From Verrucomicrobiota bacterium (GTDB lineage Bacteria; Verrucomicrobiota; Verrucomicrobiia; Opitutales; Opitutaceae): 64,000 nucleotides of DNA. Of this stretch, positions 6,968 through 24,616 are shown piece by piece (positions within the stretch are counted from its first letter, which is position 1; each line of letters starts with the position of its first letter). Where the stretch lies: the NCBI GenBank assembly GCA_018239845.1, contig JAFEGO010000069.1:1-64000 (forward strand). Direction: 5' to 3'. The notes beneath the pieces were generated by a model. The model was not told where the DNA came from, did not search any database, and was given only the letters and a program-made list of their open reading frames with translations. Both the position numbers and the translations under genes were made by a program.

Positions 6968-7043
<76 letters not shown>

Positions 7044-7054
7044 TTTCCTACATT

Positions 7055-7273: not shown

Positions 7274-7594
7274 TTGCATTCTGGATATAGCTATCCGCTG
7301 AACGCATGGCTTAACGTTGACCGCGAACTCAAGCCCCGGTACGCCCACGTCATCATCGATTCCTGCCACTTCGGCGGTTCGCACCACGACATTCGCAACG
7401 TGCTGAACTATCCTCGCCTCGGCAATGAACGCAGTGATTGCGAAGCGATTGATCCCGCTTGGTGGGCCAGCCCATCCCGTGGAACGCCAGCGGGTTCGTT
7501 TGTATCGGTTACGAAGACGTCACCGAGTTACTCTTTAAACGGTAAACCTCGCGATGGTAAACATGCGCGGGGCGCTGACGATGGCGACATCACC
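7274..7594 (+). other. Open leader region before the first PEP-CTERM gene; possible relic
   Basis: The reading frame of the downstream surface protein stays open upstream to 7274, but these 107 codons precede a normal start and signal peptide, so they are not counted as part of that protein. The peptide contains HVIIDSCHFGGS, which resembles the Cys-box region of caspase-like (C14) peptidases and could be a gene relic. That resemblance is short and may be chance. The operator-like palindrome at 7529-7544 lies inside this stretch. The remainder of 7087-7273 shows nothing recognisable. Confidence 0.3.
7529..7544. promoter_or_regulatory. Operator-like palindrome (one mismatch) before the first PEP-CTERM gene
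   Basis: TACTCTTTAAACGGTA matches the perfect island palindrome at 19549 in 13 of 16 positions. It has the same 4-8-4 layout with one mismatch in the left arm. Its centre is 58 bp before the ATG at 7595. Confidence 0.5.
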
Positions 7595-10500
7595 ATGAAA
7601 AAGTTCACCTTGATTTCTGATCATAAGGCGGGGATGCAGCTGCATTCGTTGAGGGAGATCCTCGTTGGCGCGGTTGTCGTGTTTGCGCTGAACGCTACGG
7701 GTGCAGCCCAGACGCTTTTTTGGTCGGCGAATCTGGGCAGTCCTACGCCCACGGGGACTTGGGATACGTCGACGGCAAATTGGTCGGTTAATTCCGACGG
7801 ATCGAGCCCGCAGACCTGGGCCGGTGGAAGCGCCGCAACCTTCAGTGCCGGGGCGGGAGGCACCGGTACCTACACTGTCACCCTCAGCGGCACGCAGGCG
7901 GCGAGCGGGCTCACGGTGAAAAGCGGCGCGCTTACGCTGAGCGGCGGTACGCTTTCCTTGTCCTCCGGCTCTCCGATCAATGTTGCCGACGGATCGAGTT
8001 TGTCGATCGGTTCGGCCTTTTCCGCCGGCAGCGGCTTCAGTTTTGCGGGGAACACCACGGGCACGATGCAATTGTCGGGCTCGGGGAATGCGATCGGCGG
8101 CAACGTCGCGGTGAATTCCGGCACCCTGACGATCGGCGGCAGCGGCACTTACTCCGCCGGCACGGCTTTTTCCATCGCCAGCGGCGCCACCCTGCAGTTG
8201 TCGTCGCTTTACACGAACATCAACAGCACCGTGTACACCGGGACGGGCACCTTGAATGTCAACGGGGGCTGGTTGCTGGGCAACAACTCCATACTCGGTT
8301 CCTTCCAAGGGGCGATCAAGATCTCCGGGACCAACAATTACCTGTCATTTACTTCCAACTACGCCCCAAACAGCGCAGCGAGCGTCGACGTTGGTTCGGG
8401 TGCCAAACTGTATCTCCGCGAAACGACATCGCTTTCCGTCGGATCGAAGATCAGTGGCAGCGGCACCCTAATTCGGGATAACAACTCGGGAACGGTCACG
8501 CTGACGAACGCGAACAATTCGTTTACCGGCGCCCTCAGCATCTCCAGTGGCGGGAAAATCACCGTCGATGCCGCCGGTTCCATCGGTACGCCGGCTTTGG
8601 CGTTTGGCACTGGCGGTGGAACCGTGACTTTCAACAACGGCAGCCAGACGCTTACCAGCCTGTCTTCCAGCGTGACCGCAAGCGCGGTTGCCTTGTCCAA
8701 CAGCACCACGCTGACGCTCAACGAAGGGAGTTCCACCAATGACTCGTACTCCGGGGCCATCACCGGCGGCGGTAGCGTGATCAAGACCGGGGCCGGTTCG
8801 ATGAATCTCAAGGGAACGAACAGCTACACCGGCGGCACCACGGTGAATGCGGGCACATTGACCGTCTCCACCGGTGCCTCCTTGGGCACGGGGGCGCTCA
8901 CGGTCAATGCCGGCACGTTGAACTTGAGCAACGCGAGCCAAACGGTGGGCGCGCTCGGCGGCACGGGTGGTACGGTAAACTTGGGATCCGGCCATACGCT
9001 GACGACCAATGCCTCCACCTCCAGTTCATTCGCGGGTACGCTCGCCGGCTCCGGGAATTTTACCAAGGCCGGGGCCGGGACGCTGACCCTTACCGGCGCC
9101 AACACCTATACGGGCACGACTACGCTCGCGGGTGGCACCGTGGCGTTGGGCTCGAGCGGCGCACTGGGCGGATCCGGCAATCTCACTTTTACCGGCGGAG
9201 CGCTGCAATACAGTGCCGTCAACACCCAGGACTATGCATCGCGCATCGCCAATAGCACGGGCGCGATTTTTCTGGATACCAACGGGCAGGCGGTGACCCT
9301 GACCGGCAATCTGGGTTCGAGCAATACGGGCGGCTTGACCAAGACAGGTGCGGGCACCTTGACGCTGACCGGTGCCAACACCTACACGGGCACGACGACG
9401 CTCGCCGGCGGCACGGTGGCGTTGGGTTCGAGCGGCGCACTCGGCGGGTCGGGCAGCATCACGTTCACCGGCGGCGGGCTGCAGTACGGCGCGAACAACG
9501 CCAACGATTACTCGTCCCGCATGGTCAATAGCACGGCCGCGATTCTCCTGGATACCAACGGCCAGGCCGTGACGCTGGCCGACAACCTCGATTCGAGCAA
9601 CACGGGCGGCCTGACCAAGACGGGTGCGGGCACCTTGACGCTGGCCGGTGCCAACGCCTACACGGGCACGACGACGCTCGCCGGCGGCACGGTGGCGTTG
9701 GGCTCGAGCGGCGCGCTGGGCGGATCGGGCAACATCACGTTCACCGGCGGCGGGCTGCAGTACAGTGCCAACAATACAAACGATTATGCCTCGCGCATTG
9801 CCAACAGCACGGGCACCATCCTCCTGGACACCAACGGGCAGGCGGTGACGCTGACCGGCAACCTCGATTCGAGCAATACGGGCGGCTTGACCAAGACGGG
9901 TGCGGGCACGTTGACGCTGGCCGGTGCCAACGCCTACACAGGCACGACCACGCTCGCCAGCGGCACGGTGGCGTTGGGCTCGAGCGGCGCGCTGGGCGGA
10001 TCGGGCAACATCACGTTCACCGGCGGCGGTCTGAAGTACAGCGAGAACAATACGAACGATTATGCCTCGCGCATCGCCAACAGCACAGGTGCTATTATAC
10101 TGGATACCAATGGACAGGCGGTCAGGCTGGCCGGCAACCTGGGGTCGGGCAATACGGGTGGCTTGACCAAGACGGGTGCGGGCACCCTGACGCTGGCCGG
10201 TACCAACACCTACGGGGGCACGACCACGCTCGCCGGTGGCACGATGGTGTTGGATTCGAACGGTGCGCTGGGCGGATCGGGCAACATCACGTTCACGGGC
10301 GGCGGGCTGCAGTACGGCATGAACAACGCCAACGACTACGCGTCCCGCATCGCCAACAGCACGGGCGCCATCCTTCTGGACACCAACGGGCTTGCTGTGA
10401 CCTGGGCCGGCAACATCGACTCGAGCAACACGGGCGGCTTGACCAAGACGGGTGCTGGCACCTTGACGCTGGCCGGTGCCAACACCTACACCGGCACGAC

Positions 10501-11911
10501 GACACTCGCTGGTGGCATCCTGGCATTGGGCTCCAGTGGCGCACTGGGCGGATCCGGCAACATCACCTTCACGGGCGGCAGGCTGCAGTTCGGCGCGAAC
10601 AATACCAACGATTATGCGTCCCGCATCGCCAATAGCACGGACGCGATTTTCCTGGATACCAACGGCCAGACGGTGACCCTGGCCGGTAATCTTGATTCGA
10701 GCAATACGGGCGGTCTGAGAAAAACCGGGGCGGGAACTTTGGTCCTCACGGCGGCAAACACCTACAGAGGGACCACCACGCTCGCCGGCGGCACGTTAAC
10801 CGTTGATGGCAACGGGCAGCTCGGCGCCGGTGCGCTTGCGGTTAATGACGGTACGCTGAACCTCAACGGCACCGTCGCCTCCACAGTGGCAGGCTTGAGC
10901 GGCTCCGGTGGCGTGATCAACCTGGCATCGACGTCCGGCTTGGGCGTCCAGCAGAGCGGCGACAGTGTCTTTTCCGGCTCGTTTACCGGAGCGGGAGGCT
11001 TCACGAAAGACGGGACTGGCTCTCTGAGCCTCAACGGCGTCAACGATCAGACCGGCACGACCGTCCTTTCGGGTGGTCAGGTCATCGTCGCGGCCGGCGC
11101 GAAACTCGCGGCCGACACCAGCAATGTGGTCTTCGCCGGCGGTACCCTCACGCTCAACAACGACACCCAAACCCTCTCGGCCGTGTCCGGCAATTCGGGC
11201 ACGCTTCAGCTTGGCTCGAATCACATGCTTACGCTGCGGGGCGGAACCGGAGGCGGCATCGGTGCGGGTACATTCAATGGCACGATTGCGGGCGCGGGCG
11301 GCATAACGATAGACGCGGGCGGTGACACCGCCACGTGGGGCGGGTCCTCGAGCAATACCCGGACGGGCGTGACGCGCATCAATTCCGGCACCCTCGCACT
11401 CGCCAAAACCAATGGAGCCCTGGCGATCGGTGGCGGCGCCGTCGAGTTGTCGGGCGGTTCGATGAGGTTGGACGGCGATCAGCAAATTGCCCGGACTGCA
11501 TCACTCACCTTGGACGGCGGCACGTTCAACCTGAACGACCGGACGCAAACGTTTGCCACGGCTTTGCTGGTGAAAGGGGATAGTATTATCGACTTTGGCG
11601 CGAGTGGCTTGGGCGCACTCTCGTTTGCTTCGAGTTCCTCCAGCTTTTGGTCCGGCACCCTCACCTTGGTGAATTTCTCCGCGTCCAGCCACCTGAGCTT
11701 TGGCACCGACGCCTCCGGCCTTAACCAAGCCCAGCTCGCCTCTCTCCTCACCAGTGGGTATTCGGGCCGTTTCATGCTCGATTCGCATGGCAACCTGGCG
11801 CTGACCGCGGTGCCCGAGCCTGCGAGTTATGCCGCATTTATCGCGACCGCTGGATTGGCGGCCGCCTTCTGGCACCGCCGCCGTCGTTCCCCATTGGGCG
11901 GCCAAGCGTGA
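7595..11911 (+). CDS. Autotransporter-type beta-strand repeat protein with PEP-CTERM anchor
   Basis: 1438 aa, secreted and probably surface-displayed. The ATG at 7595 is followed by a long n-region and a hydrophobic segment ending in TGAAQT, a plausible signal peptide (an alternative ATG at 7634 shortens it). The body is a Gly/Thr/Ser/Asn-rich parallel beta-helix of autotransporter-associated repeats such as TKTGAGTLTLTGANTYTG. Six consecutive 92-residue units are near-identical. The C-terminus is a PEP-CTERM sorting signal: VPEPASYAAF, a hydrophobic helix, then HRRRRS. No outer-membrane translocator barrel is present, so sorting should depend on an exosortase elsewhere in the genome. The protein at 16233-19487 is a clear paralog, sharing for example SPTPTGTWD near the mature N-terminus. 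An adhesin or matrix-scaffold role is inferred. Confidence 0.9.
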   Translation: MKKFTLISDHKAGMQLHSLREILVGAVVVFALNATGAAQTLFWSANLGSPTPTGTWDTSTANWSVNSDGSSPQTWAGGSAATFSAGAGGTGTYTVTLSGTQAASGLTVKSGALTLSGGTLSLSSGSPINVADGSSLSIGSAFSAGSGFSFAGNTTGTMQLSGSGNAIGGNVAVNSGTLTIGGSGTYSAGTAFSIASGATLQLSSLYTNINSTVYTGTGTLNVNGGWLLGNNSILGSFQGAIKISGTNNYLSFTSNYAPNSAASVDVGSGAKLYLRETTSLSVGSKISGSGTLIRDNNSGTVTLTNANNSFTGALSISSGGKITVDAAGSIGTPALAFGTGGGTVTFNNGSQTLTSLSSSVTASAVALSNSTTLTLNEGSSTNDSYSGAITGGGSVIKTGAGSMNLKGTNSYTGGTTVNAGTLTVSTGASLGTGALTVNAGTLNLSNASQTVGALGGTGGTVNLGSGHTLTTNASTSSSFAGTLAGSGNFTKAGAGTLTLTGANTYTGTTTLAGGTVALGSSGALGGSGNLTFTGGALQYSAVNTQDYASRIANSTGAIFLDTNGQAVTLTGNLGSSNTGGLTKTGAGTLTLTGANTYTGTTTLAGGTVALGSSGALGGSGSITFTGGGLQYGANNANDYSSRMVNSTAAILLDTNGQAVTLADNLDSSNTGGLTKTGAGTLTLAGANAYTGTTTLAGGTVALGSSGALGGSGNITFTGGGLQYSANNTNDYASRIANSTGTILLDTNGQAVTLTGNLDSSNTGGLTKTGAGTLTLAGANAYTGTTTLASGTVALGSSGALGGSGNITFTGGGLKYSENNTNDYASRIANSTGAIILDTNGQAVRLAGNLGSGNTGGLTKTGAGTLTLAGTNTYGGTTTLAGGTMVLDSNGALGGSGNITFTGGGLQYGMNNANDYASRIANSTGAILLDTNGLAVTWAGNIDSSNTGGLTKTGAGTLTLAGANTYTGTTTLAGGILALGSSGALGGSGNITFTGGRLQFGANNTNDYASRIANSTDAIFLDTNGQTVTLAGNLDSSNTGGLRKTGAGTLVLTAANTYRGTTTLAGGTLTVDGNGQLGAGALAVNDGTLNLNGTVASTVAGLSGSGGVINLASTSGLGVQQSGDSVFSGSFTGAGGFTKDGTGSLSLNGVNDQTGTTVLSGGQVIVAAGAKLAADTSNVVFAGGTLTLNNDTQTLSAVSGNSGTLQLGSNHMLTLRGGTGGGIGAGTFNGTIAGAGGITIDAGGDTATWGGSSSNTRTGVTRINSGTLALAKTNGALAIGGGAVELSGGSMRLDGDQQIARTASLTLDGGTFNLNDRTQTFATALLVKGDSIIDFGASGLGALSFASSSSSFWSGTLTLVNFSASSHLSFGTDASGLNQAQLASLLTSGYSGRFMLDSHGNLALTAVPEPASYAAFIATAGLAAAFWHRRRRSPLGGQA
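9095..10750 (+). repeat. Six tandem 276-bp coding repeats
   Basis: Six consecutive 276-bp units start at 9095, 9371, 9647, 9923, 10199 and 10475, with a diverging seventh from 10751. Each encodes 92 residues running from GANTYTGTTTLAGG through GALGGSGNITFTGG and DYASRIANST to NTGGLTKTGAGTL. The period is a whole number of codons, so gain or loss of units keeps the frame. Near-identity at the DNA level points to recent expansion or homogenisation. Confidence 0.92.
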
Positions 11912-12338
11912 CGCGCGCCTGTGCTCCCTTTCCCGCCCGATCATGCGAGTCAGCTTCGACGATAACCACCGGGTATCGGGCATGGCTGCGCCACACGGTC
12001 GGCCCTCACGTCAGCGACTCAAGCGCCCTTATATAAAACCTGAATGGCCGATTCGGGACGCGGGTGTCACCGGCCCGCACAGCGTCAGGGATCTGTTTCT
12101 GGAGGCACCGAACCAGCGCGCCATCGGCTACTGATCCGGCAGCAGCAGGAATTCCTGCTGCTGCCGGAGCTCTGTATTTCCAAGGATCGGTATTTTGGCG
12201 GAATCGACCTTTTCCGCTTCCAACCGTTGATCGCAATACTTCGGGTCCGCTCGTTCACCTTCGACCTGCGTTAAAGGGTACATTGCGAATGGCCGCCCCG
12301 CCTGCGGCCCGGTCGGGTTGAGGGTGTCCGCTAGCCGC
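11912..12338. other. Intergenic region between convergent genes
   Basis: 427 bp without a supported gene, between the first PEP-CTERM gene and the hybrid kinase, which converge. It holds the 34-bp perfect palindrome at 12135-12168. Short open frames on both strands have no family features. Confidence 0.5.
12135..12168. repeat. 34-bp perfect palindrome
   Basis: Two 17-base arms meet without a loop: TCCGGCAGCAGCAGGAA followed immediately by its exact reverse complement. The CAGCAG/CTGCTG content gives an additional internal triplet repeat. It lies between convergent genes, but no T-run follows on either strand, so a standard terminator is unlikely. It may be a protein-binding or recombination site, or a rho-dependent pause hairpin. 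Confidence 0.85.
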
Positions 12339-15300
12339 TTACGGTCGATGGCGGGGAGTGGAATCGGGGGGATTGGCTGGCGCACTGCACCGCTGCACGA
12401 TTACCAGGCGGAGTTGGGCGATTTCGTCCGCCACCCTGCCCAATATTTGTTCCAGTTGGTCTTTGGGGCGTCCTTGGCCGACGGCGGTCTCCAGCATATC
12501 GAGAAGTTTTTCGAGTCCGCGTGCCTGCACCAACAGCCCGAGATTGTGCACCGCGTGCAGCCTGGCGGTGCTTTCGGGGGAGCCTTGGGCGACCGCGGTC
12601 TTCGCCGCCTCGAAGGCGGTTTCCAGATCGCGCAGAAATCTCGGCAGTACCTCGTCGGCCGGCCCGACCATGAGCAAGCGGCCGAATTCCGGTCCGGCCG
12701 ACTCGCTGTCAGGCTCGGTTTGATCCAGGCCGTCGCTTTTACCGGAGGGAGGAGGCGTCAAGTTCAGTTTGGCCAGGACGGTGCAGAGGCGGGTTTGACT
12801 CACGGGCTTGCTGATGAAGTCCGTCGCGCCGGCGGCGAGAATCTGTTTTCTCGATTCCGTGGTCGCAGAGGCGGATATCACAATGATCGGCGGACAGCTC
12901 TTGCCCAGCCGATCGCGCATTTGCTTCAGCGCTTCGCTGCCGGACATATCGGGCAGCGACCAGTCGGTAATGATCACGTCATAAGTCTCCTGCTCCAGCA
13001 AGGCGAACGACTCGGTGAAATTCGACGCCCAATCCACGTGGAAATCGAGTTCCCCCATGTAGTATCCAAGGACGAGCCGATTGTAGCGTTCATCCTCGAT
13101 CGCCAGCACTCGCAGGTTGGGCAGCAGGACGTTTTGGCGGGTCAAAGGGGCGTCGCTGCGCTGAAGCGGCACCCGAAACCAGAATGTCGTCTGTCCGTCG
13201 GCACTTTCCGCTCCCACGTCGCCGCCCATCAGCTTCATATATTGGCGGCACAGGCCCAGCCCGATGCCGGAGCCCTCGGCGCCGGTGTCCGCAGCCTGGC
13301 GGCCGCGCCCGAAAGGGAGAAAGCAGCGGTCCAGCTCTTCCGGCGTCAAGGTCGGCCCGGGGCTCGTGACCCGCACGGTTAAGTTTATTTTTTCCGGGCC
13401 CGGCGACTCGATGGAGAGCGAGATGTCCGCTCGCGCGGGCGATCCGTATTTGCGCGCATTCGACAGAAAATTACCGAGCACCAGCCGGATCTTGCCTTGA
13501 TCTCCGTGGCAGGAGTGGGCGTCGGGCACCGGGCTTACCAGGCGGAAGAGGCCTTCATCCCGGTCGAAACGACGACAGGTCGTCCGCACCAGTTCGACGA
13601 TTTCAAAGTCCTCCTCGTTGAGCGAGATCTTGCCTTCCTCGATGCGGGAGAGATCGAGCACTTCGTCCACGGTCGCACGGAGTTGTTCGGCACAGGCGCT
13701 CAGCGAGTCCGCCAGCAGATCGTCGCGTTTGTCCCTGGCCCTGGCTGCGACGATCCGCGCCACGCCGATCACTCCATTCATCGGATTGCGGATCTCGTGA
13801 TTCATCCGCGCAAGAAACTCGTCCTTGAACGCGTTGGCCTTGCGCAGCTGCTCGGTTCGCGAGTCCACGATTCGCGTCAACTCCAGGTTGCGTTGGTGCA
13901 GGATCCGGGTTCGCCACCGCAGCAGGCCGAAGAAACTGCCGGACACCGCAAGGGTCCCGAGCAAGGCGCCGGGCCAGCTCAGCCACCACGGCCGCGCCCG
14001 GTGAATGACGTGGCGGACCGCGCGTTCGAGTCCGGCGACCGAAGCCCGCACCTGAACATCGTTGTCCCCGTAACTCAGGCGCGGCAGCACCACCGTGGAG
14101 CCGGCCTCGACCGGCTCCCAAGGGCTGTCGCCGACCTTCAGGCTATAGGTGGGGCTTTGCCACGGCCACAACCGCGGCGCTGGCAAGGTAAGCCGGACCA
14201 AGCTTTGCCCGGCTGACAGACCGCTTTCGGGCAAAGCGCTGCCGTCCGCCTGCTTGAAATCCAGACGAATCTCGGGCTGGCGGATGAAACGCGGCTCCGA
14301 AAATCGCAGCACTTCGCCTTCGCAAATCGCGACCAGGTTGTCGTCCTGCACCCGGATCTCAATTGGCGTGGATGAACCGGGGATGTCGAGGGGTTCCATG
14401 ACTCCGGTTTTCGGGTCAAAACGTGCCGCCACGCGAAGTCCCTGGCGGGTGCGGCCAAGCACATAAAAATCGTTCCGCCAGTGGATCGCGCTCTGCAATG
14501 AGCTGAAGGGCAGGTTGCAGAGCAGCCGGCCGGTCTCATCATAAAAATCGCCGTTGCTGTCCATGACACTGAACTCACCGTCTTCGATGGTGGCCCAGCA
14601 GTAGCCGTGTCCGAAGGTCGAGAGGACCTCGCCGTCGGCATTGTAGCGAAAGACCCCGCTTCTGGTATAAACCAGAAAGCCCTTTGAATGTTTCAGCGGA
14701 ACGACGCAGTTAGGGGGAAACGGCGGCGAGACGTGGCGGATCCGTCCGTCGCGATCAAGTAGCAGCACATCGTTGAGTTCCGGCGGACCGAACCATTGCA
14801 CCATGGCGAGGCGGTCGGGCGATACTTCCGCCATGACCACCTGGCCCGTCTTCAGCTGGGGCAGGGGAAACTGCCGCTTGCCCCATGTGAGGTGGCCGGA
14901 TTCCGCGGTGACCAGTTCGCCGGACTTCAATTCCAACATGCCCAGAACCGCCGGGAGATTCAGGCCCGCGTCGGTTCCATCGAGAAAGAATTGTCCGTTG
15001 GTGGTTAGCAGTATGATCCCCCGGTGTGTATAAATAATATCATACGCCACGCCCGGAATCTTGGCGGCTTGCATATACCCGGGGTCAGGCAACAGGTAGA
15101 ATCCATGCTGCCCGCTGGCCAGGAGTCCATCCTCCGTGGGCTGCAGGTTTTGCAATACCTGATCGTCGGGTGGGCTCGGGAGCAGCCGTTGGGTCTTGTT
15201 TATCCTGGAATAGGCGATGACACCGGAGGAGGTTGGAAAATAGGAATAATTGCGCAGGACCGCCCCCCAGGATCCGGGTACCAAAGCGTCCCGCACCTGC

Positions 15301-16079
15301 CCCCAATCATGGGAGGATTTATCCGAAATCAGCGCTCCGGGCGGAAAAGCGGCGCTCTTCGGCCACGTTTTCGCCCCGTCGAAGAAGAAGCTGTCATTCG
15401 CGGCCGGTCCGCGCATGAGGCATGAATTTGCAAGCTCGACCGCACTTCTCGATTCAGCGGACTTCAGAAAAGTCGTGCCGTTCCATGTCCACACTCCCCC
15501 GAGATCCTGTTCAAAAGCGGAAATGGTGGTTCCGTAGCGCTGCAAGATCAGAGACGCCTTGGCCGGATGCTCGAACACCCGTCGCACGTGTCCGTCTTCT
15601 GTGATACAGCAGATCGATCCATTCGAACTCAGGAACGCCTGTGAGTCGTCCCCCAGGATGCTTCTCATATCCGCCTCGGTAGGAATCGGTATCCAGTCGC
15701 TTCCTCTCGCGAGCCAGCATCTTTTCGTGCTCGCTGCCAAAAGCCCGCCTTTAAAGGATGCCAGTTGTACGATTATTTCGGGAGGCGGGGAGCGCTTGCT
15801 CCAGCGGATGGCTCCTTGCTCATAGATTCCGGCAAAGGTGCGGGTGGCCCAGGCGCCATTTGGCAGCTGCGCCCAAGAGGTACGAGCCGCCCCGGCTTCG
15901 CTCGGCACGCCGTCGAGCTTGTAGAAACGCGGCGCATACTCCGCCCTGACGTTTCCGCGCCCCGGAACCAGGAAGAGCCCCGCTATCGTTAGGATGGTTG
16001 CGCGTGATATTTTCACGGAGTCTCTCACCGCGTTGTATACTCGTTTCCGGGAAGGCAGGGTCAAGTGTTTGGGGATCAT
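12339..16079 (-). CDS. Hybrid sensor histidine kinase with periplasmic propeller, Y_Y_Y domain, receiver and Hpt-like domain
   Basis: 1246 aa, a one-protein phosphorelay of the hybrid two-component type. A signal/anchor segment (about 25-45) precedes a large periplasmic part (about 50-600) with repeated beta-strand blades and a Y_Y_Y-like module (about 605-690). A membrane helix follows at about 695-718. HisKA has the acceptor H761 in ARMNHEIRNPMNG. The HATPase has N874 (GNFLSNARKYG) and the G box GSGIGLGL. The C-terminal receiver has the acceptor D1039 in VIITDWSLPD. The last about 100 residues look like an Hpt helix bundle, but the usual HxxKG is replaced by H1175-AV-H1178-N, so phosphotransfer through it is doubtful. 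No DNA-binding domain is present; the LuxR-type regulator at 20264-20935 is the obvious candidate partner. The ATG at 16079 gives the signal segment; no Shine-Dalgarno and no island palindrome precede it. Confidence 0.88.
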   Translation of the reverse strand: MIPKHLTLPSRKRVYNAVRDSVKISRATILTIAGLFLVPGRGNVRAEYAPRFYKLDGVPSEAGAARTSWAQLPNGAWATRTFAGIYEQGAIRWSKRSPPPEIIVQLASFKGGLLAASTKRCWLARGSDWIPIPTEADMRSILGDDSQAFLSSNGSICCITEDGHVRRVFEHPAKASLILQRYGTTISAFEQDLGGVWTWNGTTFLKSAESRSAVELANSCLMRGPAANDSFFFDGAKTWPKSAAFPPGALISDKSSHDWGQVRDALVPGSWGAVLRNYSYFPTSSGVIAYSRINKTQRLLPSPPDDQVLQNLQPTEDGLLASGQHGFYLLPDPGYMQAAKIPGVAYDIIYTHRGIILLTTNGQFFLDGTDAGLNLPAVLGMLELKSGELVTAESGHLTWGKRQFPLPQLKTGQVVMAEVSPDRLAMVQWFGPPELNDVLLLDRDGRIRHVSPPFPPNCVVPLKHSKGFLVYTRSGVFRYNADGEVLSTFGHGYCWATIEDGEFSVMDSNGDFYDETGRLLCNLPFSSLQSAIHWRNDFYVLGRTRQGLRVAARFDPKTGVMEPLDIPGSSTPIEIRVQDDNLVAICEGEVLRFSEPRFIRQPEIRLDFKQADGSALPESGLSAGQSLVRLTLPAPRLWPWQSPTYSLKVGDSPWEPVEAGSTVVLPRLSYGDNDVQVRASVAGLERAVRHVIHRARPWWLSWPGALLGTLAVSGSFFGLLRWRTRILHQRNLELTRIVDSRTEQLRKANAFKDEFLARMNHEIRNPMNGVIGVARIVAARARDKRDDLLADSLSACAEQLRATVDEVLDLSRIEEGKISLNEEDFEIVELVRTTCRRFDRDEGLFRLVSPVPDAHSCHGDQGKIRLVLGNFLSNARKYGSPARADISLSIESPGPEKINLTVRVTSPGPTLTPEELDRCFLPFGRGRQAADTGAEGSGIGLGLCRQYMKLMGGDVGAESADGQTTFWFRVPLQRSDAPLTRQNVLLPNLRVLAIEDERYNRLVLGYYMGELDFHVDWASNFTESFALLEQETYDVIITDWSLPDMSGSEALKQMRDRLGKSCPPIIVISASATTESRKQILAAGATDFISKPVSQTRLCTVLAKLNLTPPPSGKSDGLDQTEPDSESAGPEFGRLLMVGPADEVLPRFLRDLETAFEAAKTAVAQGSPESTARLHAVHNLGLLVQARGLEKLLDMLETAVGQGRPKDQLEQILGRVADEIAQLRLVIVQRCSAPANPPDSTPRHRP

Positions 16080-16232
16080 CGCTCATTGATACGAGAGGTT
16101 TGCGATAAGGAGGATGATGCGAGAACGAGCGTTTCGCTGCGGATGCCGAGAGTGTTTGCGGCGGAAAACATAGCGGCGATCCCGGCGAGCACGGTCCGGT
16201 CGCGGGCAATGCGATTCGGTGGCGGCCGTCAG

Positions 16233-19200
16233 TCAGGCAATCCGCTGCCGACGGCGACTCCAGAGCGCTGCGCCGGTGGCCGCGACACCGAACAACATGG
16301 CGTAGGTCGAGGGCTCAGGCACGGCGGTAAGAGTCAGATAGCCGTTGGCATCGAGTCCGAAACCGCGGGAAAACCCATTGATGGCGATCGAGGCGATCTG
16401 CGTGGCATTGAGCCCGGAGGCGTCCGTGCCAAACCGCAGCCGGCTGGAATCGCTGAAATTCACGAGCGTCAGCGTTCCGGACCAGAATGTGCCGGCACTG
16501 GAAGCGAACGAGAGGGCGCCGCCGCCGCCGGCACCGAAATCGATCACCGCATTTCCGTTGACGTGCAACGCGGTGCCGAACGCCTGCGTCATGTTGTTCA
16601 GCTCGAGCGTACCTCCGCCCAGCGTCAGGGTGGCGGCCCGGGCGATTTCCTGGCTGCCTTCGAACCGTAGCGTGCCACCTGCGAGCTCCACGTCTCCCCC
16701 GCCGATCGCAACGGCGCCGCCCGATTTGGCCAGGGCGAGCATGCCGGCATTGATCCGTGTGACACCGGAGTTCAGATTATCGGATGATCCGCCGAGCGTC
16801 ATCGTCGCACCGTCGGCAGCCAAGGTCATGCCGCCCCGGCCGGAGATCACGCCGCCGTATGTCCCGCCGCCTTGTAGGGTCAGCATATGGTTGGAACCCA
16901 GCTCAATCACGCCGGCGGACCCCGAAAGCGATGCGATCGTCTGGGCATTGTTTTCCAGCGTCAGATTACCGCCGCCCATCACCAATCCCGCAGTGCCGGC
17001 ACTCAGTTTGGCGTCGGCTCCCGAAACGATCAAATCTCCGGCGCTAACCACGGTGGTGCCGGTCTGCGCGTTCGAGCCGGTCAAAGTCAGCGTGCCGATA
17101 CCCAGCTTGGCAAGCCCACCGACGTTCGAGCCGGCGAGATTGCCGGCAAAGACCACGCTTTGGCCATTTGTATCCAATTTTATGGACGCGGAAGAATCGG
17201 CAATTCGCCCGGAGTAGTCATTGGTGTTGCCTGAATTGAATCGCAGCGTTCCTCCGGCAAACGTGATTTCCCCGGTGTTGCCGAGTGCGCTGCCCGAACC
17301 GACCGACAGAATTCCTTTCGCCAGGGTCGTGGTTCCGGTATAGGTGTTGGCTCCGGTCAGCTCGAGCGTGCCCGTGCCGGCCATTTGCAAACTGCCGGTG
17401 CCTTCGAGGATGCCGGCGAAGGTATCGATTGCGCCCGTCGTTGTGACCAGGGTATGGCCGGCGCCGAGGTTCACGGTGCCGCCGGTGCCGTTCAGCGATG
17501 CGACGGACTGGGTGGCATTGTTCAGGTTTACGACCCCGCTGTTGACGGTCAGCGCGCCGGTGCCGGCGGCACTGTTGGCGGAAACCGTCAGCATGCCGCC
17601 GGCCACCGTCGTGCTGCCCGTGTAGGTGTTGGCCCCGGATAAAATCAAGGTCCCGTTGCCCGACTTCAGCAGGTTGCCCTCGCCGGTGATCAGACCTGCG
17701 AAGGTTGCGGTCGCCGTCGTATTGTCGGTCAGCGTGGTGCCGGACTCTAGGTTCACCGCCCCGCCGCTGCCACTGAGCGAGGACACGGATTGGCTGCCGT
17801 TTTTGAAATTTAGCGTGCCTCCATTGACGGCGAGGCTGCCGCCGCCGAGCGCGCCGCCGGCGCCGACGGTCAAAGTGCCGTTGTTCACGACCGTATTGCC
17901 CGTGTAGGTGTTCGCGCCGGTAAGAGTGAGCGAACCGCTGCCGGACTTCGTCAGGTTGCCAGCCCCTTGGAGCACGCCGGCAAAGGTATCGGCTCCCACG
18001 GCATTATCAACGAGGGTGCTCCCGAGGCCCAGGGCGATGACACCACCGGTGCCGTTTAGCGCAGAGACCGACTGGCTCGCGGTGTTTAGGTTGAGAGTGC
18101 CGCCTTTCATGGTGAGAGGACCGCTTCCGACCGATGCGCCGGCCGATACGTTCACGACTCCCGAGTTCAGCGTCATGCCACCGCTGTAGTTGTTTAGACC
18201 CGTGAGGGACAAGGTACCGCTGCCGGCCTTCACCACTGCGCCACCACCGGCGATAACGCCCGCAAATGTGTCGTTCTGCCCGCTGGCTTCCGTCATGGTC
18301 AAGGTCGTCGCGTTCGACAAATTGACCGTCCCCGACGAGCCCGCGGTGTTGAGGCCGGTCAGCGTTTGGCTGGCATTGTTAAAATTTACGGTGCCCCCTC
18401 CCGTCCCGAATGCCACCGCAGCGCTGCCCAATGAGCCGCCGTTTGTGATCGTTAGGGTCCCGCCTGTGTTCAAACTCAATAGACCGGTGAAGGAGTTGTT
18501 CGGGTTCGTCAGCGTCACCAGCCCGCCTGCCACGTCGCGTACGAGCGTTCCGCTGCCCGTGATGGTCGAGCCAATTGAAGTCGTCGAGTTTTCACGGAGG
18601 TACAGCTTGGTGCCCGCACCGACGTCGAGGGTCGCCGAGCTGCTGGGCGCAAAGCCTTGGGTGTACGATAGGTAATTGTTGCTGCCGGAAATCTTGATGG
18701 TGCCGGCAAAGGAGCTGAGCGTGCCATTGTTACCCAGCAGCCAGCCCGTGTTGACATTCAAGGTTCCCGTACCCGTAAGGGTGGTGTTGTTGATGTTCGT
18801 GTAAACCGACGACATCTGCAGGGTGGCACCCGTAGCGACTGAGAGCGTCGTCCCCGAGGAAAACGCGCCGCTGCCGGCGAAGGTCAGGGTGCCGGAGTTT
18901 ACGGCTACGTTGCCGCCAATGGCGTTGCCCGAGCCTGTCAGCCGCATGCTTCCCGTATTGTTGCCGGCGAAGGTAAACCCGCTGGTGCCCCCTAAGGCCG
19001 ATCCGAAAACCAGGCTCGATCCATTCGCGATGTTTATGGCGGATCCACCCTGCAGAGCGACCGTTCCTCCGCTGAAGGTGAGGGCTCCCGTGTTCAAGGT
19101 GAGTCCACCCGCCGTTTGCGTGCCGCTTACCGCCACGGTGAATGTGCCGGTGCCGCCGCTGCCGGCGCTGAAGTACGCGGAGGCGCCGGTCAGCCAGGTC

Positions 19201-19487
19201 TGCATATTCGCGCCGCTTGAGTCCGTGGACCAGGCTGCCGTCGTTGCATCCCAGGTGCCGGTCGGTGTCGGACTATCCGGATTTGCCGCCCAGTAGACCG
19301 TTTGCGCCAAGGACACAGATTGCATGGCGAGCAGGCAAAACCCGGCACATAGGGCGAATCGCTGCGCCTGGGGAAGGCGGCTGCCCCGCCACGATGGCTG
19401 CGAGCGGCCGTTTCCAAGCCGGAGCGAGCCGAAGGCTCCCCGCATGTGTTCAAGCGAAAATTTTACCGTGCGAACCAGGGGTTTCAT
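16233..19487 (-). CDS. Autotransporter-type beta-strand repeat protein with PEP-CTERM anchor (paralog)
   Basis: 1084 aa, secreted and probably surface-exposed. The start at 19487 (MKPLVRTVKF) is favoured over 19502 because an AGGAG sits 9 bases before it. A long n-region and a hydrophobic stretch ending SVSLAQT form the signal. The mature N-terminus (YWAANPDSPTPTGTWDAT) aligns closely with the protein at 7595-11911. The body is the same beta-helix repeat type with more divergent, irregular units such as LTLTGANTYTGNTVV. It ends in the PEP-CTERM signal VPEPSTYAMLF, a hydrophobic helix and RRRQRIA. An exosortase elsewhere is required for processing. The perfect palindrome at 19549-19564 lies 62-77 bp upstream, pointing to shared control with the paralog. 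Confidence 0.9.
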   Translation of the reverse strand: MKPLVRTVKFSLEHMRGAFGSLRLGNGRSQPSWRGSRLPQAQRFALCAGFCLLAMQSVSLAQTVYWAANPDSPTPTGTWDATTAAWSTDSSGANMQTWLTGASAYFSAGSGGTGTFTVAVSGTQTAGGLTLNTGALTFSGGTVALQGGSAINIANGSSLVFGSALGGTSGFTFAGNNTGSMRLTGSGNAIGGNVAVNSGTLTFAGSGAFSSGTTLSVATGATLQMSSVYTNINNTTLTGTGTLNVNTGWLLGNNGTLSSFAGTIKISGSNNYLSYTQGFAPSSSATLDVGAGTKLYLRENSTTSIGSTITGSGTLVRDVAGGLVTLTNPNNSFTGLLSLNTGGTLTITNGGSLGSAAVAFGTGGGTVNFNNASQTLTGLNTAGSSGTVNLSNATTLTMTEASGQNDTFAGVIAGGGAVVKAGSGTLSLTGLNNYSGGMTLNSGVVNVSAGASVGSGPLTMKGGTLNLNTASQSVSALNGTGGVIALGLGSTLVDNAVGADTFAGVLQGAGNLTKSGSGSLTLTGANTYTGNTVVNNGTLTVGAGGALGGGSLAVNGGTLNFKNGSQSVSSLSGSGGAVNLESGTTLTDNTTATATFAGLITGEGNLLKSGNGTLILSGANTYTGSTTVAGGMLTVSANSAAGTGALTVNSGVVNLNNATQSVASLNGTGGTVNLGAGHTLVTTTGAIDTFAGILEGTGSLQMAGTGTLELTGANTYTGTTTLAKGILSVGSGSALGNTGEITFAGGTLRFNSGNTNDYSGRIADSSASIKLDTNGQSVVFAGNLAGSNVGGLAKLGIGTLTLTGSNAQTGTTVVSAGDLIVSGADAKLSAGTAGLVMGGGNLTLENNAQTIASLSGSAGVIELGSNHMLTLQGGGTYGGVISGRGGMTLAADGATMTLGGSSDNLNSGVTRINAGMLALAKSGGAVAIGGGDVELAGGTLRFEGSQEIARAATLTLGGGTLELNNMTQAFGTALHVNGNAVIDFGAGGGGALSFASSAGTFWSGTLTLVNFSDSSRLRFGTDASGLNATQIASIAINGFSRGFGLDANGYLTLTAVPEPSTYAMLFGVAATGAALWSRRRQRIA

Positions 19488-19548
19488 AATTGGTCTCCTC
19501 ATGACGGCGCAGCCTCCTCTGAACGCCCGGTATTTCGAGACCTTAGCT

Positions 19549-19564
19549 TACCTTTTAAAAGGTA
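19549..19564. promoter_or_regulatory. Operator-like palindrome TACC-N8-GGTA (perfect)
   Basis: TACCTTTTAAAAGGTA is a perfect 16-bp palindrome centred about 69 bp before the start of the second PEP-CTERM gene (minus strand). It is the best-conserved copy of the island motif and lies in the divergent region before 19781-20248. Confidence 0.65.
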
Positions 19565-19724
19565 ATCAGGAGTGTGTCTCCTTGCACTTAATCAGGGGTC
19601 TCGTGCCAGCCGCCAAGCCGCGCCGCAGGGGGGAGATCCACTGTCGTCCGGTAGCCGGCGACGGGAAGCCCCTCACCTCCGGTGCCCGTAACCGGCCGGG
19701 CACAAAACGAACAGGGGTCGGGAT

Positions 19725-19740
19725 TACCTTTGCTCGGGTA
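19725..19740. promoter_or_regulatory. Operator-like palindrome TACC-N8-GGTA
   Basis: TACCTTTGCTCGGGTA has both arms intact and is centred about 48 bp before the ATG at 19781, upstream of the receiver-like gene. Together with 19549-19564 it gives the divergent intergenic region one site per gene. Confidence 0.6.
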
Positions 19741-19780
19741 ATCGGGACGCTTAGCGACCCGCGCGTTCCCCATCAAAGTG

Positions 19781-20248
19781 ATGCATCATTTGGAACGAAT
19801 GGTCACCCAATCTTCATCGACTCAACCTCAGCCTTTTTCGGGGACATTCGCGTCCAGTGGAGAGGACCGGGCCGGCAGAATCCTGATCTGCGAGGCTGTC
19901 CGCTCGGAACGCGCCCGTATTCGCCGCGCCTTGGTCCGGCTGGGCCTGCCGATCGACTGTTGCGCGACGGCACCATCGATCATGAGCGCGCTGTACGGCC
20001 GTCCGGATGACTATCGGGTGATTATCCTATCCCAGCCCCTGGCCGGACTGGGGCCCTTGGAAACGGCTCGGTTGCTTAAAAACAAATCATCAAGAAGGTT
20101 TATCGTCGTGCTATTGAGGGCACATGCCGAGGAGCCGGAATTTTCTTATATCGAGGCCGGGGCTCGCATTATACTGCGAAGTCCGGTCGATCTCTCCGTC
20201 CTCCGGAATGCCATCACCGCCTATCTTTCCGCCCGCTTTCCGATGTGA
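19781..20248 (+). CDS. Receiver-like protein without phospho-acceptor Asp
   Basis: 155 aa from the ATG at 19781 (GTG at 19778 and ATG at 19799 are alternatives). After a Ser/Thr-rich N-terminus of about 30 residues it reads as a CheY-like fold: GRILICEAVRSERARIRRAL, then VIILSQPLAGLGP, then IVVLLRAHAEE, then GARIILRSPVDL. In a normal receiver the strand-3 residue is Asp; here it is S84. The strand-5 Lys is R133, and the strand-1 acidic pair is reduced to E38. It probably acts as a phosphorylation-independent adaptor or decoy, if functional. A palindrome lies upstream. No output domain is present. Confidence 0.65.
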   Translation: MHHLERMVTQSSSTQPQPFSGTFASSGEDRAGRILICEAVRSERARIRRALVRLGLPIDCCATAPSIMSALYGRPDDYRVIILSQPLAGLGPLETARLLKNKSSRRFIVVLLRAHAEEPEFSYIEAGARIILRSPVDLSVLRNAITAYLSARFPM

Positions 20249-20263
20249 AAGCACCTGATGGTG

Positions 20264-20935
20264 CTAGCCTTTGAACGGCGAGCGCTTGGATCCGGCTTGC
20301 AGCACTTTGGAATCAACGAAGCCCCGGGTAACGGCATAGCTCATGAGCTCTGCGGCGGTATGCAATTCCAGCCGGGACATGATGTTCCGGCGATGGGCTT
20401 GGATGGTCCCGGAACTCAGCCCCAGCAGGGCGGCGGTTTCCTTGTTGCTCAAGCCGGCGCCGATCAATTTCAACACGTCCTGTTCCCGTTCCGAAAGCAG
20501 TATGTTGTAAAAATCCGGGCGCGCCCGCATCCGGGTGCGCATTTGGACGACCGTTTCACTATAAAACCGGCCGCCGGCCGCGACGGTCTCCACGGCGGCG
20601 GTGAGAACTTCGAAGGAATCGCTCTTGTGCACAAACCCCTTGAGTTCAGCCCGAAAGGCCTGGGTGACCAAAAACTCCTCGCTCACATCGGTGACCCAGA
20701 TGAGCGCGAGCGTGGGACGCAGCGTGCTCAGTTGCTTCACCAGGCCGAAGGCGGTTTCCGTTCCGAGCCTGATGTCAATGAGTGCGACATCCGCCTCCAC
20801 CTGGTGGAGTTCGGCCAGGACTGATGCCGCATCCACGAACGTTTTCACGACCGAAAACCCGGGCCGCGTATTCAGCATCGCCGCGAGGCTGTCGCCAATC
20901 AAACGCTGGTCCTCCACAATAATTATACGGATCAT
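20264..20935 (-). CDS. LuxR/NarL-type response regulator
   Basis: 223 aa. The N-terminal receiver (1-120) has the acidic pair E8-D9, acceptor D54 (ALIDIRLG), T82 and K104. A C-terminal LuxR helix-turn-helix lies at about 145-205 (LSEREQDVLKLIGAGLSNKETAALLGLSSGTIQAH, given in parts: LSEREQDVLK then SNKETAALLGLSSG). All residues for phosphorylation-controlled DNA binding are present, unlike its neighbour at 19781. It is the only DNA-binding protein in the island. It is therefore the first candidate to bind the TACC-N8-GGTA palindromes, since dimeric LuxR-type regulators usually recognise sites of this size. It converges with 19781-20248, with a 15-bp gap. Confidence 0.9.
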   Translation of the reverse strand: MIRIIIVEDQRLIGDSLAAMLNTRPGFSVVKTFVDAASVLAELHQVEADVALIDIRLGTETAFGLVKQLSTLRPTLALIWVTDVSEEFLVTQAFRAELKGFVHKSDSFEVLTAAVETVAAGGRFYSETVVQMRTRMRARPDFYNILLSEREQDVLKLIGAGLSNKETAALLGLSSGTIQAHRRNIMSRLELHTAAELMSYAVTRGFVDSKVLQAGSKRSPFKG

Positions 20936-21103
20936 GGTTCGAAATGCGAAGCGGTTGGATTTCTGCGGACGAAAGCGCGGTCAATGCGGCGATGCGAGCA
21001 AGACTTTCTCCGGCCCATTCCATCGCCCGCACGCACGGAAGCGGAGTGTCAACAATGGTACCTGAGGGTCGGGTCACGCCCCGGCCCGGGGCTCGATGTG
21101 CGG

Positions 21104-22675
21104 CTAAATTATGGCTGTCGATTTCCCCGTCGTTTTGCCAGCCGGCGTTCCGGTTGGATTGCCGGTCGCCTTCGGGTAGGCGACAGCCCCGGGATAGAGA
21201 CGTTCGGCGACGGCGGCGACTTCGCGGGCTGCGTCGGTCTTGCCATACCGATCAAGCGCCTGCACCACGAACTGGTAACCGGCCGCTTGAAGCAACCCAC
21301 GCTGGCGGTCGATGGCTCGCGCCAGCCGGTTGGCCCGCGTGTCGCTCTGTTCGCCGCAGGACATGACCAGCTCGACGAGCAAGTCTGCGCCGGGATCGCG
21401 GTTGGCCGCATCGGCATTGCTCTGGCGGTAGTGCTCCACGCAGGTCGTGGCCTGCGTGAGCAGGTTGTGACGGAAGAAAAACTCGGCCATTTGGGCCCAC
21501 AGCGGCGCCGGATCAAGGCCTGCCGCCTGCGTGTCGTCGATCGTTTGCGCGACCAGCTTCCACTCCCCGGCGCCCAGGGCCACCGCACCCCAGGATTTTA
21601 GCGCCGTCGGATTTTTGCCGAAATGGGCCAGGAATTCCCGCTGCAGGGATTTCATCCTGTCCGTCCGTCCGAGCTGCAGGTTGCCCCTCAGCTCCAGCAG
21701 GTAAGCTGCCGGATTTTCCGGATCCGCTTTCTTGGCCTCCGCGATGAGCTCGTCCATTTTGGCGGGGCGCTGTGTTTCGCGAGCGAGTTCGATGCCCAGC
21801 AGGAGGTGATCCGGGGTGGTGCGCCACTTGTCCGGCGCTGTTTCCCAGGTCGTCCACGCCGCGTCGGTCTGGCCCGTGCGCGTGGATACGGCAATGCTCA
21901 GCTCCCCGGCCTCCGTCTCCGACTTCGGCTTTTCTGAGCTCAACCGCTTGCCGGCCGCATCGAAATCCTGCGCTTCGATCAAGAGTGATATGGGCAGTGT
22001 TGTGCCGAGATAGTACCTGCCCGCTTCGTCCAGCCGGCTGCTGTGCTGAAGAAGCGTGCGCGCCCGGGTCATTCGCTGTTCCCAGCCCGTCTTTTGGGCC
22101 AGGCGGGAAAAAATGGCGCTTAGCAACGGCCGTCCCACCGGGGGATAATTCAGGCCCTGCTCCAAAAGGGCCAGCGCTTGTTCGGGACGTTCGATCTCGT
22201 AGAGATCAGCGAGAGCCAGCCTGGCTTCCGTAAGGGAGGGCTCTTTCGCCAGGCCTGATTGCAAGTAGTACACCGCATCTTCCGGGTGCTTCTCGTGCAG
22301 CTCGGCGAGGCCATGGGCGATCATGGACTGTCCTTGGACCGCGCGGAAGTCCCGCCAGGCAACAGGTGCCAGGACAACGTGGGTAAAGGTGATTTTATTA
22401 TAAGGTTGCTGCTTGAAATATTGGGCCACGGCGACGGCGGTGCCCAGGTAACCTACGATCGTGAGCGCAGCAAGGGCGACACCGAGGCGCTTCCAATAGA
22501 TATCGATCCACCACTTTGTTTCGCACGCGACGCTCTTCTCGATACCCACGCTGCCCAAAAGCCAAAGGCGGGCGTCGGTCGGTGGCCGGTCCCGTTTCCA
22601 CTGCTTGAAGGATTTGATTCGAATTTTCATTTTTAGGGCGGTTGAGGCTAGTTTTCCACTTTTCGCACGGGTCAT
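21104..22675 (-). CDS. TPR-containing membrane-anchored protein
   Basis: 523 aa from the ATG at 22675 (MTRAKSGKLAS). The frame is open back to 22738, but the operator-like palindrome at 22716-22731 would then fall inside the gene, so the later start is preferred; ATG 22630 is also possible. After a basic cytoplasmic segment there is one membrane helix (LGVALAALTIVGYLGTAVAV). Helical repeats of TPR type follow, for example HEKHPEDAVYYLQSGLAKEP and EARLALADLYEIERPEQALA. The repeats should face the periplasm. The C-terminus is a low-complexity Lys/Thr/Gly tail. TPR proteins often scaffold export or assembly complexes; a link to surface display of the PEP-CTERM proteins is inference from position only. 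Confidence 0.7.
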   Translation of the reverse strand: MTRAKSGKLASTALKMKIRIKSFKQWKRDRPPTDARLWLLGSVGIEKSVACETKWWIDIYWKRLGVALAALTIVGYLGTAVAVAQYFKQQPYNKITFTHVVLAPVAWRDFRAVQGQSMIAHGLAELHEKHPEDAVYYLQSGLAKEPSLTEARLALADLYEIERPEQALALLEQGLNYPPVGRPLLSAIFSRLAQKTGWEQRMTRARTLLQHSSRLDEAGRYYLGTTLPISLLIEAQDFDAAGKRLSSEKPKSETEAGELSIAVSTRTGQTDAAWTTWETAPDKWRTTPDHLLLGIELARETQRPAKMDELIAEAKKADPENPAAYLLELRGNLQLGRTDRMKSLQREFLAHFGKNPTALKSWGAVALGAGEWKLVAQTIDDTQAAGLDPAPLWAQMAEFFFRHNLLTQATTCVEHYRQSNADAANRDPGADLLVELVMSCGEQSDTRANRLARAIDRQRGLLQAAGYQFVVQALDRYGKTDAAREVAAVAERLYPGAVAYPKATGNPTGTPAGKTTGKSTAII

Positions 22676-22715
22676 TTCAGTGAGTGACTCCCGGATGCGA
22701 TTCAACCGGCGCGTA

Positions 22716-22731
22716 TACCTTTTATAGGGTA
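22716..22731. promoter_or_regulatory. Operator-like palindrome TACC-N8-GGTA
   Basis: TACCTTTTATAGGGTA matches the perfect copy at 19549 in 14 of 16 positions with both arms intact. It is centred about 48 bp before the chosen start of the TPR gene on the minus strand. Confidence 0.6.
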
Positions 22732-22968
22732 TTTCCATTGTAGTTCACCGGCTCGCCTGGATGACTCCCTCCGCTTGTTTGGCAAAGGCAAATGCGATAG
22801 AATGGACTGCTCATTAATCATTTATAATAAATGAATTAACTTAAAAATGGATGATGATCAGGCCGTCCGTTGCCCACCGCTGGTTCCAGCAGGTTGCCAT
22901 TACATGGCGCGACCGTTGGCTGCGGTTTGGGTCTGCCGGTTACTGATCTGCACCACCGTGCGATTTGC

Positions 22969-22984
22969 TACCTTAGGAATGGTA
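22969..22984. promoter_or_regulatory. Operator-like palindrome TACC-N8-GGTA
   Basis: TACCTTAGGAATGGTA has both arms intact and is centred about 53 bp before the ATG at 23030. The rest of the divergent region 22739-22968 is A/T-rich, with an imperfect inverted repeat around 22811-22838, and carries no gene. Confidence 0.6.
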
Positions 22985-23003: not shown

Positions 23004-23029
23004 GACCCCAAGCTGTGCTTGTTGGGGTC
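23004..23029 (+). promoter_or_regulatory. Hairpin abutting a start codon
   Basis: GACCCCAA (23004-23011) and TTGGGGTC (23022-23029) form an 8-bp perfect stem with a 10-nt loop that ends directly before the ATG at 23030. The only purine-rich ribosome-binding candidate (GGGG) is inside the stem, so the hairpin could limit translation. Confidence 0.5.
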
Positions 23030-23806
23030 ATGAACTCCACCTGCCTTTCACCTTCGACCCTGGTCCCGCGCAGCCCTGAGCGTAATCTCTATGATTTGCT
23101 CGACGGACGTTTTTTCCGCGAAATGCGTTCGTTTCTCACTCCGATCATCGGCTACGCGAGCCTGCTGCAGGCCGAGCCTCAATACGCGGTGAATGATGGT
23201 GAAATGCATCAGATCGCGGATACGCTCGCCGCTTCGGGCGGCCGGCTCCTCAGCCTGATTCAGAGTATCGAACAATGGGATGCGCTTGAGAAGATAGCGG
23301 AAGGAACCTCGCCGGCGCCGGCCGTGGCCATCACACTCTGCGGCTCCGCGGTCTTGCAGGCTCAGCTGAAATCAATCGCCCGTCGATTTGACCGCGGTGA
23401 CGATTTGCACCTGCGCGTGGGCCCGGTTTGCTGCCGCAGCATCGGCGACCGTTGGCTCGGCATCGTGACCGAGCATCTCGTGGTCAATGCGTTCAAATTC
23501 ACCCGCCCGGGGACCAAAATCTACGTGGCGAACAGTCAGGATCATGACCGCTATGTGTTTTCCGTCACTGATGAAGGTCCGGGCATGACGGCTGAGCAAA
23601 TTTCCCAGATCGCCGCTTTCCGCCAATTCGACCGCAGCAAATACGAGCAGCAGGGCTTGGGCCTGGGACTCCGCATGGCACAGGTGTTTGCCCACTGCTC
23701 CGGTGGCACGCTGGTTGTCAGTCCCGCGGAATATGGGAGCGGGACGCACGTCACCCTTACACTGCCCGGCGTCCCCGCCGCCGATCTTCTGACGGTAGAT
23801 CGATAG
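23030..23806 (+). CDS. Histidine-kinase-like protein lacking the acceptor His
   Basis: 258 aa from ATG 23030 (the frame also has a GTG at 23015). It resembles a kinase core: a dimerisation helix (REMRSFLTPIIGYASLLQAE) followed by an ATPase domain with the N box N153 (EHLVVNAFKFT), the DEGPGM box at 181-186 and GLGLGL at 209-214. In the H box the motif HELRTPL is replaced by R30-EMRSFL, so the usual phospho-acceptor is missing, although ATP-binding residues are intact. No sensor domain or membrane helix is seen. It may act as a phosphatase, an ATP-dependent switch or a dimerisation partner for the hybrid kinase. A palindrome and a start-codon hairpin precede it. Confidence 0.75.
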   Translation: MNSTCLSPSTLVPRSPERNLYDLLDGRFFREMRSFLTPIIGYASLLQAEPQYAVNDGEMHQIADTLAASGGRLLSLIQSIEQWDALEKIAEGTSPAPAVAITLCGSAVLQAQLKSIARRFDRGDDLHLRVGPVCCRSIGDRWLGIVTEHLVVNAFKFTRPGTKIYVANSQDHDRYVFSVTDEGPGMTAEQISQIAAFRQFDRSKYEQQGLGLGLRMAQVFAHCSGGTLVVSPAEYGSGTHVTLTLPGVPAADLLTVDR

Positions 23807-24352: not shown

Positions 24353-24616
24353 TTATGGGTGAATCGACCTGATGGAAGATTGTGACCGCACCAGCGCTAT
24401 CACGCCTTTACGGAGACCGGATCCGAGACTCAGCCAGCCCCGTAAAATCTCGTCAATGGCTTCGCTCCAATCGCCTAAATCTTGATGCGAAATCACGCTA
24501 TTTGGGCCGGATGACGCCCCCGCTGACTTCTGGGCTTTTGCAGTTTCGTAAAGATGATCGAGATAAGCATCTTGCAGAATTCGATGCAGCAGTTCGAGTC
24601 TCTTCGCCCGCTCCAT
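24353..24616 (-). other. Open frame starting inside the duplicated tRNA end
   Basis: An 87-codon open frame begins MERAKRLEL, where these residues are simply the reverse-strand reading of the tRNA-Gly 3' end. It continues through a Lys/Glu-containing helical stretch (HRILQDAYLDHLYETAKAQK) to a stop at 24353. Genes of tRNA-targeting elements sometimes start in the att site, so a small island gene is possible, but no family is recognised and it may be non-coding. Confidence 0.25.

Follow-up and report, generated by a model that had tools for sequence, protein, structure and literature searches.

A tRNA-Gly-bounded island in an Opitutaceae bacterium carries a predicted NarL-type two-component regulon with 7-2-7 operators

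The window, the whole 64-kb stretch of DNA analyzed here from a 4.23 Mb genome in 123 contigs, contains an island of 17.6 kb adjoining a tRNA-Gly(GCC) gene (6968-7043, ARAGORN). A direct repeat search identified exact 28-bp repeats of the 3' end of the tRNA-Gly gene and its flank at both borders of the island, as in tRNA-borne integrative elements. In place of the intact integrase of such elements there was a remnant close to the right border.

7019..7046, plus strand: left attachment repeat at the 3' end of tRNA-Gly(GCC), exact 28-bp match to 24591-24618
24591..24618, plus strand: right attachment repeat, exact 28-bp match to the left repeat
24045..24236, minus strand: tyrosine integrase remnant of 63 aa (Pfam PF00589, E 0.0035, under the cut-off)

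The G+C content of the island (approximately 58-65%) was lower in most of the segments compared than that of the flanks (approximately 65-68%). The element is a real island, bounded by exact tRNA repeats. Because the integrase is reduced to 63 aa, the element is probably no longer able to move on its own. An earlier note on this DNA had proposed a regulon that travels with the element, for which no confirmation was obtained: no second island turned up, and the integrase was only a remnant. The tRNA-Gly gene of G232, a genome of the same genus, was in an unrelated context, and no empty site was readable. A PEP-CTERM protein followed by a transposase likewise adjoins the tRNA-Gly gene in a genome of this genus (L284:8273-9685).

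Besides two beta-strand-repeat PEP-CTERM proteins, the island encodes a NarL/FixJ-type regulator and a hybrid kinase, together with one receiver-like, one TPR, and one His-less kinase-like protein. Predicted targets of the regulator are marked as such.

7595..11911, plus strand: predicted target, 1438-aa beta-strand-repeat protein with PATR repeats and a C-terminal PEP-CTERM-like signal
12339..16079, minus strand: hybrid sensor kinase, proposed partner of the regulator (HisKA, HATPase, receiver, Hpt-like tail)
16233..19502, minus strand: predicted target, beta-strand-repeat PEP-CTERM protein of 1089 aa with its start at 19487 or 19502 (PATR, PEP-CTERM above the cut-off)
19778..20248, plus strand: predicted target, receiver-like protein without output domain (weak matches to receiver-bearing frames)
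20264..20935, minus strand: NarL/FixJ-type response regulator, proposed binder (Pfam Response_reg and GerE)
21104..22738, minus strand: predicted target, TPR membrane protein, start possibly 22675 (Pfam TPR)
23015..23806, plus strand: predicted target, kinase-like protein with HATPase and HisKA matches, start possibly 23030 (Pfam)

The regulator at 20264 matched PF00072 and PF00196 above the cut-offs, the receiver and GerE domains of the NarL/FixJ (LuxR-type) class, and its phosphorylation pocket was intact (E8/D9, D54, T82, K104); NarL, FixJ, and VraR were among its solved relatives. The N-terminal sensor part of the hybrid kinase comprises about 700 aa. The first surface protein had a PEP-CTERM score of 18.8 bits, under the cut-off of 20.7. 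The receiver-like protein has a serine in place of the receiver aspartate and no Pfam or NCBIfam match, and its low-confidence structure model consisted of alternating strands and helices. Its orthologs were rejected as island markers because only weak receiver-domain matches were obtained, and relatives of the TPR protein in Opitutales (24-28%) were rejected as anchors because their neighborhoods were without the palindrome described next. The kinase-like protein at 23015-23806 lacks the histidine in its HisKA match, in which the H-box reads MRSFLTP.

Perfect copies of a palindrome, TACC-N8-GGTA, had been noticed at 19549, 19725, 22716, and 22969, together with a one-mismatch copy at 7529, and all five positions were confirmed. 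They are given here with their scores and ranks from a matrix built from 11 sites of nine foreign loci, that is, loci of other genomes, with the island sequence excluded.

7529..7544, plus strand: candidate operator TACTCTTTAAACGGTA, one arm mismatch, before the first PEP-CTERM protein (matrix 14.5, rank 3)
19549..19564, unstranded: candidate operator TACCTTTTAAAAGGTA with perfect arms, upstream of the second PEP-CTERM protein (matrix 27.3, rank 1)
19725..19740, plus strand: candidate operator TACCTTTGCTCGGGTA, weaker, before the receiver-like protein (matrix 8.0, rank 4)
22716..22731, minus strand: candidate operator TACCTTTTATAGGGTA, before the TPR protein (matrix 23.5, rank 2)
22969..22984, plus strand: candidate operator TACCTTAGGAATGGTA, weaker, before the His-less kinase-like protein (matrix 7.6, rank 5)

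As had also been claimed for the island, there was no further perfect copy: the window held exactly four, and shuffles gave 0.11 (largest 1). Places with at most one mismatch numbered 14 in the window, the perfect ones counted and 7529 among them, versus 6.6 expected; since such places are not rare, it is the inner bases, and not the arms alone, that mark 7529 as a candidate site. Distances read off the sequence with the likely start codons agreed with the 45-70 bp given previously, the site centers lying 58 bp before 7595 (site 7529), 69 bp before 19487 or 54 bp before 19502 (19549), 45 bp before 19778 (19725), 48 bp before 22675 (22716), and 53 bp before 23030 (22969). The first ATG of the TPR gene (22738) would place site 22716 over the first codons. 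Visual inspection revealed no -10 element at a constant distance from the five sites.

Twenty perfect copies of TACC-N8-GGTA were found in the whole genome, and four of the 20 were in the island, for which the probability is about 1e-6 if copies are evenly spread. The genome-wide search suggested in the earlier note therefore turned up 16 perfect copies elsewhere, but the island set was distinct by its inner bases: the copies outside the island differ there, and the left arm TACCTT occurred outside the island in a single perfect place genome-wide, which was intragenic. When up to three mismatches to TACCTTTTAAAAGGTA were allowed, the genome contained five matches, namely 19549, 22716, 7529, and two outside the island, one terminator-like and one inside a gene.

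The same palindrome was found in other genomes of the order. In G028 and G003, from families f3 and f4, it lies beside the regulator gene of relatives of the island regulator, and in G003 it also precedes a hybrid kinase with the architecture of the island kinase, divergent from a YcaO-domain gene. The divergent kinase/YcaO arrangement with an intervening palindrome was also present in G028 and on contig C113 of the island's own genome (TACCGGAAATCCGGTA). This module, made up of a short YcaO-domain protein (PF02624), a divergent large hybrid kinase, and a NarL-type regulator on the far side, is widespread in Opitutales (L176:4086-9777 on C113, and L179-L239), and YcaO relatives of the module also occur in Bacteriovoracaceae/Bdellovibrionales. 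No description of the module was found in open-licence papers.

A YcaO alignment search identified 61 loci, mostly from Opitutaceae, and the 58 with usable starts were analyzed. Twelve of the 58 contained a total of 15 perfect TACC-N8-GGTA palindromes within 600 bp upstream of YcaO, versus 4 in the remaining 870 kb (Poisson approximately 1e-24, with loci treated as independent despite their kinship). These palindromes were located at -257 to -345, adjoining the kinase start. Nine foreign loci carried TACCTTTTAAAAGGTA or close variants between kinase and YcaO, and site 19549 was identical to operators at the kinase/YcaO promoters of other genomes. Five foreign sites fit TACCTTTNNAAAGGTA; this pattern had 3 matches in 273 Opitutales genomes, one of which was 19549. 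The TACCTTTTAAAAGGTA-module genomes held more such sites, some of them before genes for a large secreted protein, a membrane sensor kinase, and a degenerate receiver-like protein, and the operator thus serves a regulon in those genomes too. No PEP-CTERM targets were seen near the sites in genomes with the same operator.

These comparisons bear on whether the palindromes are protein-binding sites at all. As inverted repeats in intergenic DNA, they might also be hairpins at the RNA level or remnants of repeats belonging to the element, but loopless arms of 4-8 bp form poor hairpins, the flanks of the five island copies are unrelated to one another, and the same sequence stands at kinase promoters in the otherwise different DNA of nine genomes, making such an origin extremely improbable. 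The palindromes are instead best read as operators. E. coli NarL prefers inverted heptamers two bases apart (7-2-7), and it was assayed on and co-crystallized with an engineered 7-2-7 site, TACCCCTAAAGGGGTA (PMC4549865). That engineered site itself fits TACC-N8-GGTA. By its sequence, then, the palindrome is the 16-bp 7-2-7 frame of NarL-type regulators and not a new kind of operator.

The foreign-site matrix ranked the five island sites 1-5 in the 64-kb window, with the next place at 5.2. Because the best score in shuffled 64-kb windows averaged 8.66 and reached a maximum of 15.8, 19549 and 22716 exceed chance singly and 7529 nearly does; for 19725 and 22969, arm sequence and position are all that adds weight. 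By matrix score, 7529, 19549, and 22716 are accordingly graded as strong candidates and the other two as weaker ones. The regulon may have fewer than five genes, with 19725 and 22969 as chance arm matches; this is a less favored but serious reading. Scores of 8.0 and 7.6 are close to the chance maxima in the shuffles and to those in other host DNA, where about four places in 196 kb scored at least 7.6, or about one per 50 kb, and the right arms of both sites deviate from the consensus. Both sites nevertheless keep all eight arm bases and TACCTT, a start codon follows each at 45-53 bp, and within the window they take ranks 4 and 5. All five members of the originally reported set were thus confirmed in place, two of them weak by the foreign matrix, and the five-site reading is retained below.

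The LuxR-type regulator at 20264, proposed earlier as the binder, is supported as the best candidate by the operators of related genomes, by kinship, and by the foreign matrix. In the phylogenetic tree, the nine foreign TACCTTTTAAAAGGTA-module regulators formed one clade (100/100), and a wider clade (99/93) included the island regulator, whose branch was long (1.46). Its nearest neighbors in the tree (L227/EW11 and relatives) had no recognizable TACC operator, and none was found at the nearest regulators in G172/EW11. The TACCTTTTAAAAGGTA-module kinases were among the closest relatives of the island kinase, at up to 37-40% over the kinase part, and both island proteins were among the closest to their counterparts in the same nine foreign loci. 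The island shares with the module an operator of the TACC-N8-GGTA class, a hybrid kinase, and a NarL-type regulator; it has no divergent YcaO gene, the only YcaO gene of this family in the genome being on C113. As judged from these comparisons, the island pair is a divergent YcaO-less relative of the chromosomal Opitutales module, with the operator of that module retained.

The host genome contains seven copies of TACCGGAWWTCCGGTA, one of them a base off, among its perfect palindromes outside the island, several of them before genes (L171:4206, L173:4338, L142:8562, L174:5448, L175:4977, and L176:5211); two precede paralogous secreted-protein pairs and one a LuxR-type regulator. These copies are likely a second, host regulon of the C113 regulator. 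A host regulator, for example this NarL-type paralog, might also bind the island sites, so that the island plugs into a host regulon: other LuxR-type regulators number more than a dozen in the host, and the palindrome of its chromosomal YcaO/kinase/regulator module has the same TACC/GGTA arms. That module operator is TACCGGAAATCCGGTA, however, which differs in its inner bases and goes with a different class of recognition helix, and the host genome outside the island yielded no promoter site of the TACCTTTTAAAAGGTA class, which makes control by a host regulator improbable.

The five palindromes are therefore put forward, with considerable confidence, as predicted 7-2-7 operators of the island's own regulator at 20264-20935, which would make up an island-borne two-component regulon. 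The large N-terminal part of the hybrid kinase at 12339-16079 would detect an extracytoplasmic signal, and phosphate would reach Asp54 of the regulator by way of the kinase receiver and Hpt-like tail, a course suggested by domain order and by relatives. Dimers of the phosphorylated regulator, with a subunit on each TACCNNN arm, would bind at five promoters, placing the two surface beta-strand-repeat (PEP-CTERM) proteins and the receiver-like, TPR, and His-less kinase-like proteins under joint control. Site 19549 would also exert feedback on the kinase, probably by read-through, the kinase gene lying 153 bp downstream of the second PEP-CTERM gene; control of the kinase by this site is probable because the foreign operators lie at kinase starts. 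We infer binding, phosphotransfer, and co-regulation. The genes originally listed for the circuit are kept, and the hybrid kinase, missing from that list, is added. NarL acts as an activator at sites near -40 to -49 and as a repressor where its sites cover the start (PMC4549865); island sites centered 45-70 bp before start codons fit either, and activation appears slightly likelier than repression.

The way of working is known and the predicted circuit would be new. The earlier description of a self-contained, undescribed regulon stands in that the sites are confined to the island, but the operator follows the NarL frame and also serves the chromosomal kinase/regulator/YcaO module in relatives. 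The operators of E. coli NarL/NarP (narG -89 engineered site, napF, yeaR, and frdA; PMC4549865) share the 16-bp inverted heptamers, the TACC outer arms, a REC and GerE regulator, and promoter-proximal sites; the inner bases are TTT/AAA in the island and CCT/AGG in E. coli, and the island differs in having one site per gene, another kinase, other targets, another host phylum, and an island location. Compared with the Opitutales module, with which it shares operator class, hybrid-kinase architecture, and regulator clade, the island has no YcaO gene, surface-protein targets, another gene order, and single sites. PEP-CTERM genes are known to be under RpoN control (PMC9850573), and the PrsK/PrsR system that acts with RpoN on them (TIGR02915/TIGR02916) shares a nearby TPR gene and two-component control, which is predicted for the island. 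PrsR is of another type, acting with sigma-54, whereas the island regulator is NarL-type; the PrsR model was absent among the 25 matches listed for the 20264 regulator, and the 23015 protein scored 42 bits against the PrsK model, for which the cut-off is 300. Open-licence papers gave no record of PEP-CTERM genes controlled by a NarL-type regulator. A mobile-type island would here combine a sensor and a switch with their operators and targets in a single insulated unit, in a phylum with few known regulons. Owing to the foreign-matrix result, the pairing of regulator and sites can be put directly to the test, and the module family offers a way to predict targets of apparently undescribed YcaO-linked kinases.

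The operators upstream of YcaO fell into several classes: TACCTTTTAAAAGGTA with its variants at nine loci, TACCGGAAATCCGGTA at three loci and host C113, CACCT-N6-AGGTG at six loci (L188, L189, L194, L201, L209, and L215; not all perfect), and TACCTAGATCTAGGTA. TACCTTT operators, the island included, go with a (T/A/S)HRRN or THKRN recognition helix, TACCGG(A) operators with KHRFN/KHRLT, and TACCTRA operators with THRKN. The CACCT class goes with SRRRD, not HRRN; here the outer base pair changed together with a helix residue. The link between helix and operator is a correlation drawn from a small number of independent changes. Such paralogous NarL-type regulators are natural material for the recognition code of a common fold. 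It is an evenly balanced possibility that the Opitutales kinase/NarL-type pairs kept the 7-2-7 frame while the bases track the helix and insulate the copies, and that the island exported one pair with its targets; if so, the island would be a portable private circuit for surface proteins.

A degenerate receiver-like protein also follows a TACCTTTTAAAAGGTA site in G277 (L272:5424-5945); it could not be aligned with that of the island, and both are without an output domain. Site geometry differs among the loci. Some foreign sites overlap the first kinase codons, unlike those of the island; at L262, L263, and L270 this overlap with the first kinase codons (MHYLLKG...) lies near position 6000 and makes the operator itself coding sequence. 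The second site at 22-bp spacing, found in several of the nine TACCTTTTAAAAGGTA loci, is absent from the island. At L200:9682-9742 and L264:5987-6046 there are three palindromes in a row at exact 22-bp steps, and this spacing of two helical turns suggests cooperative binding.
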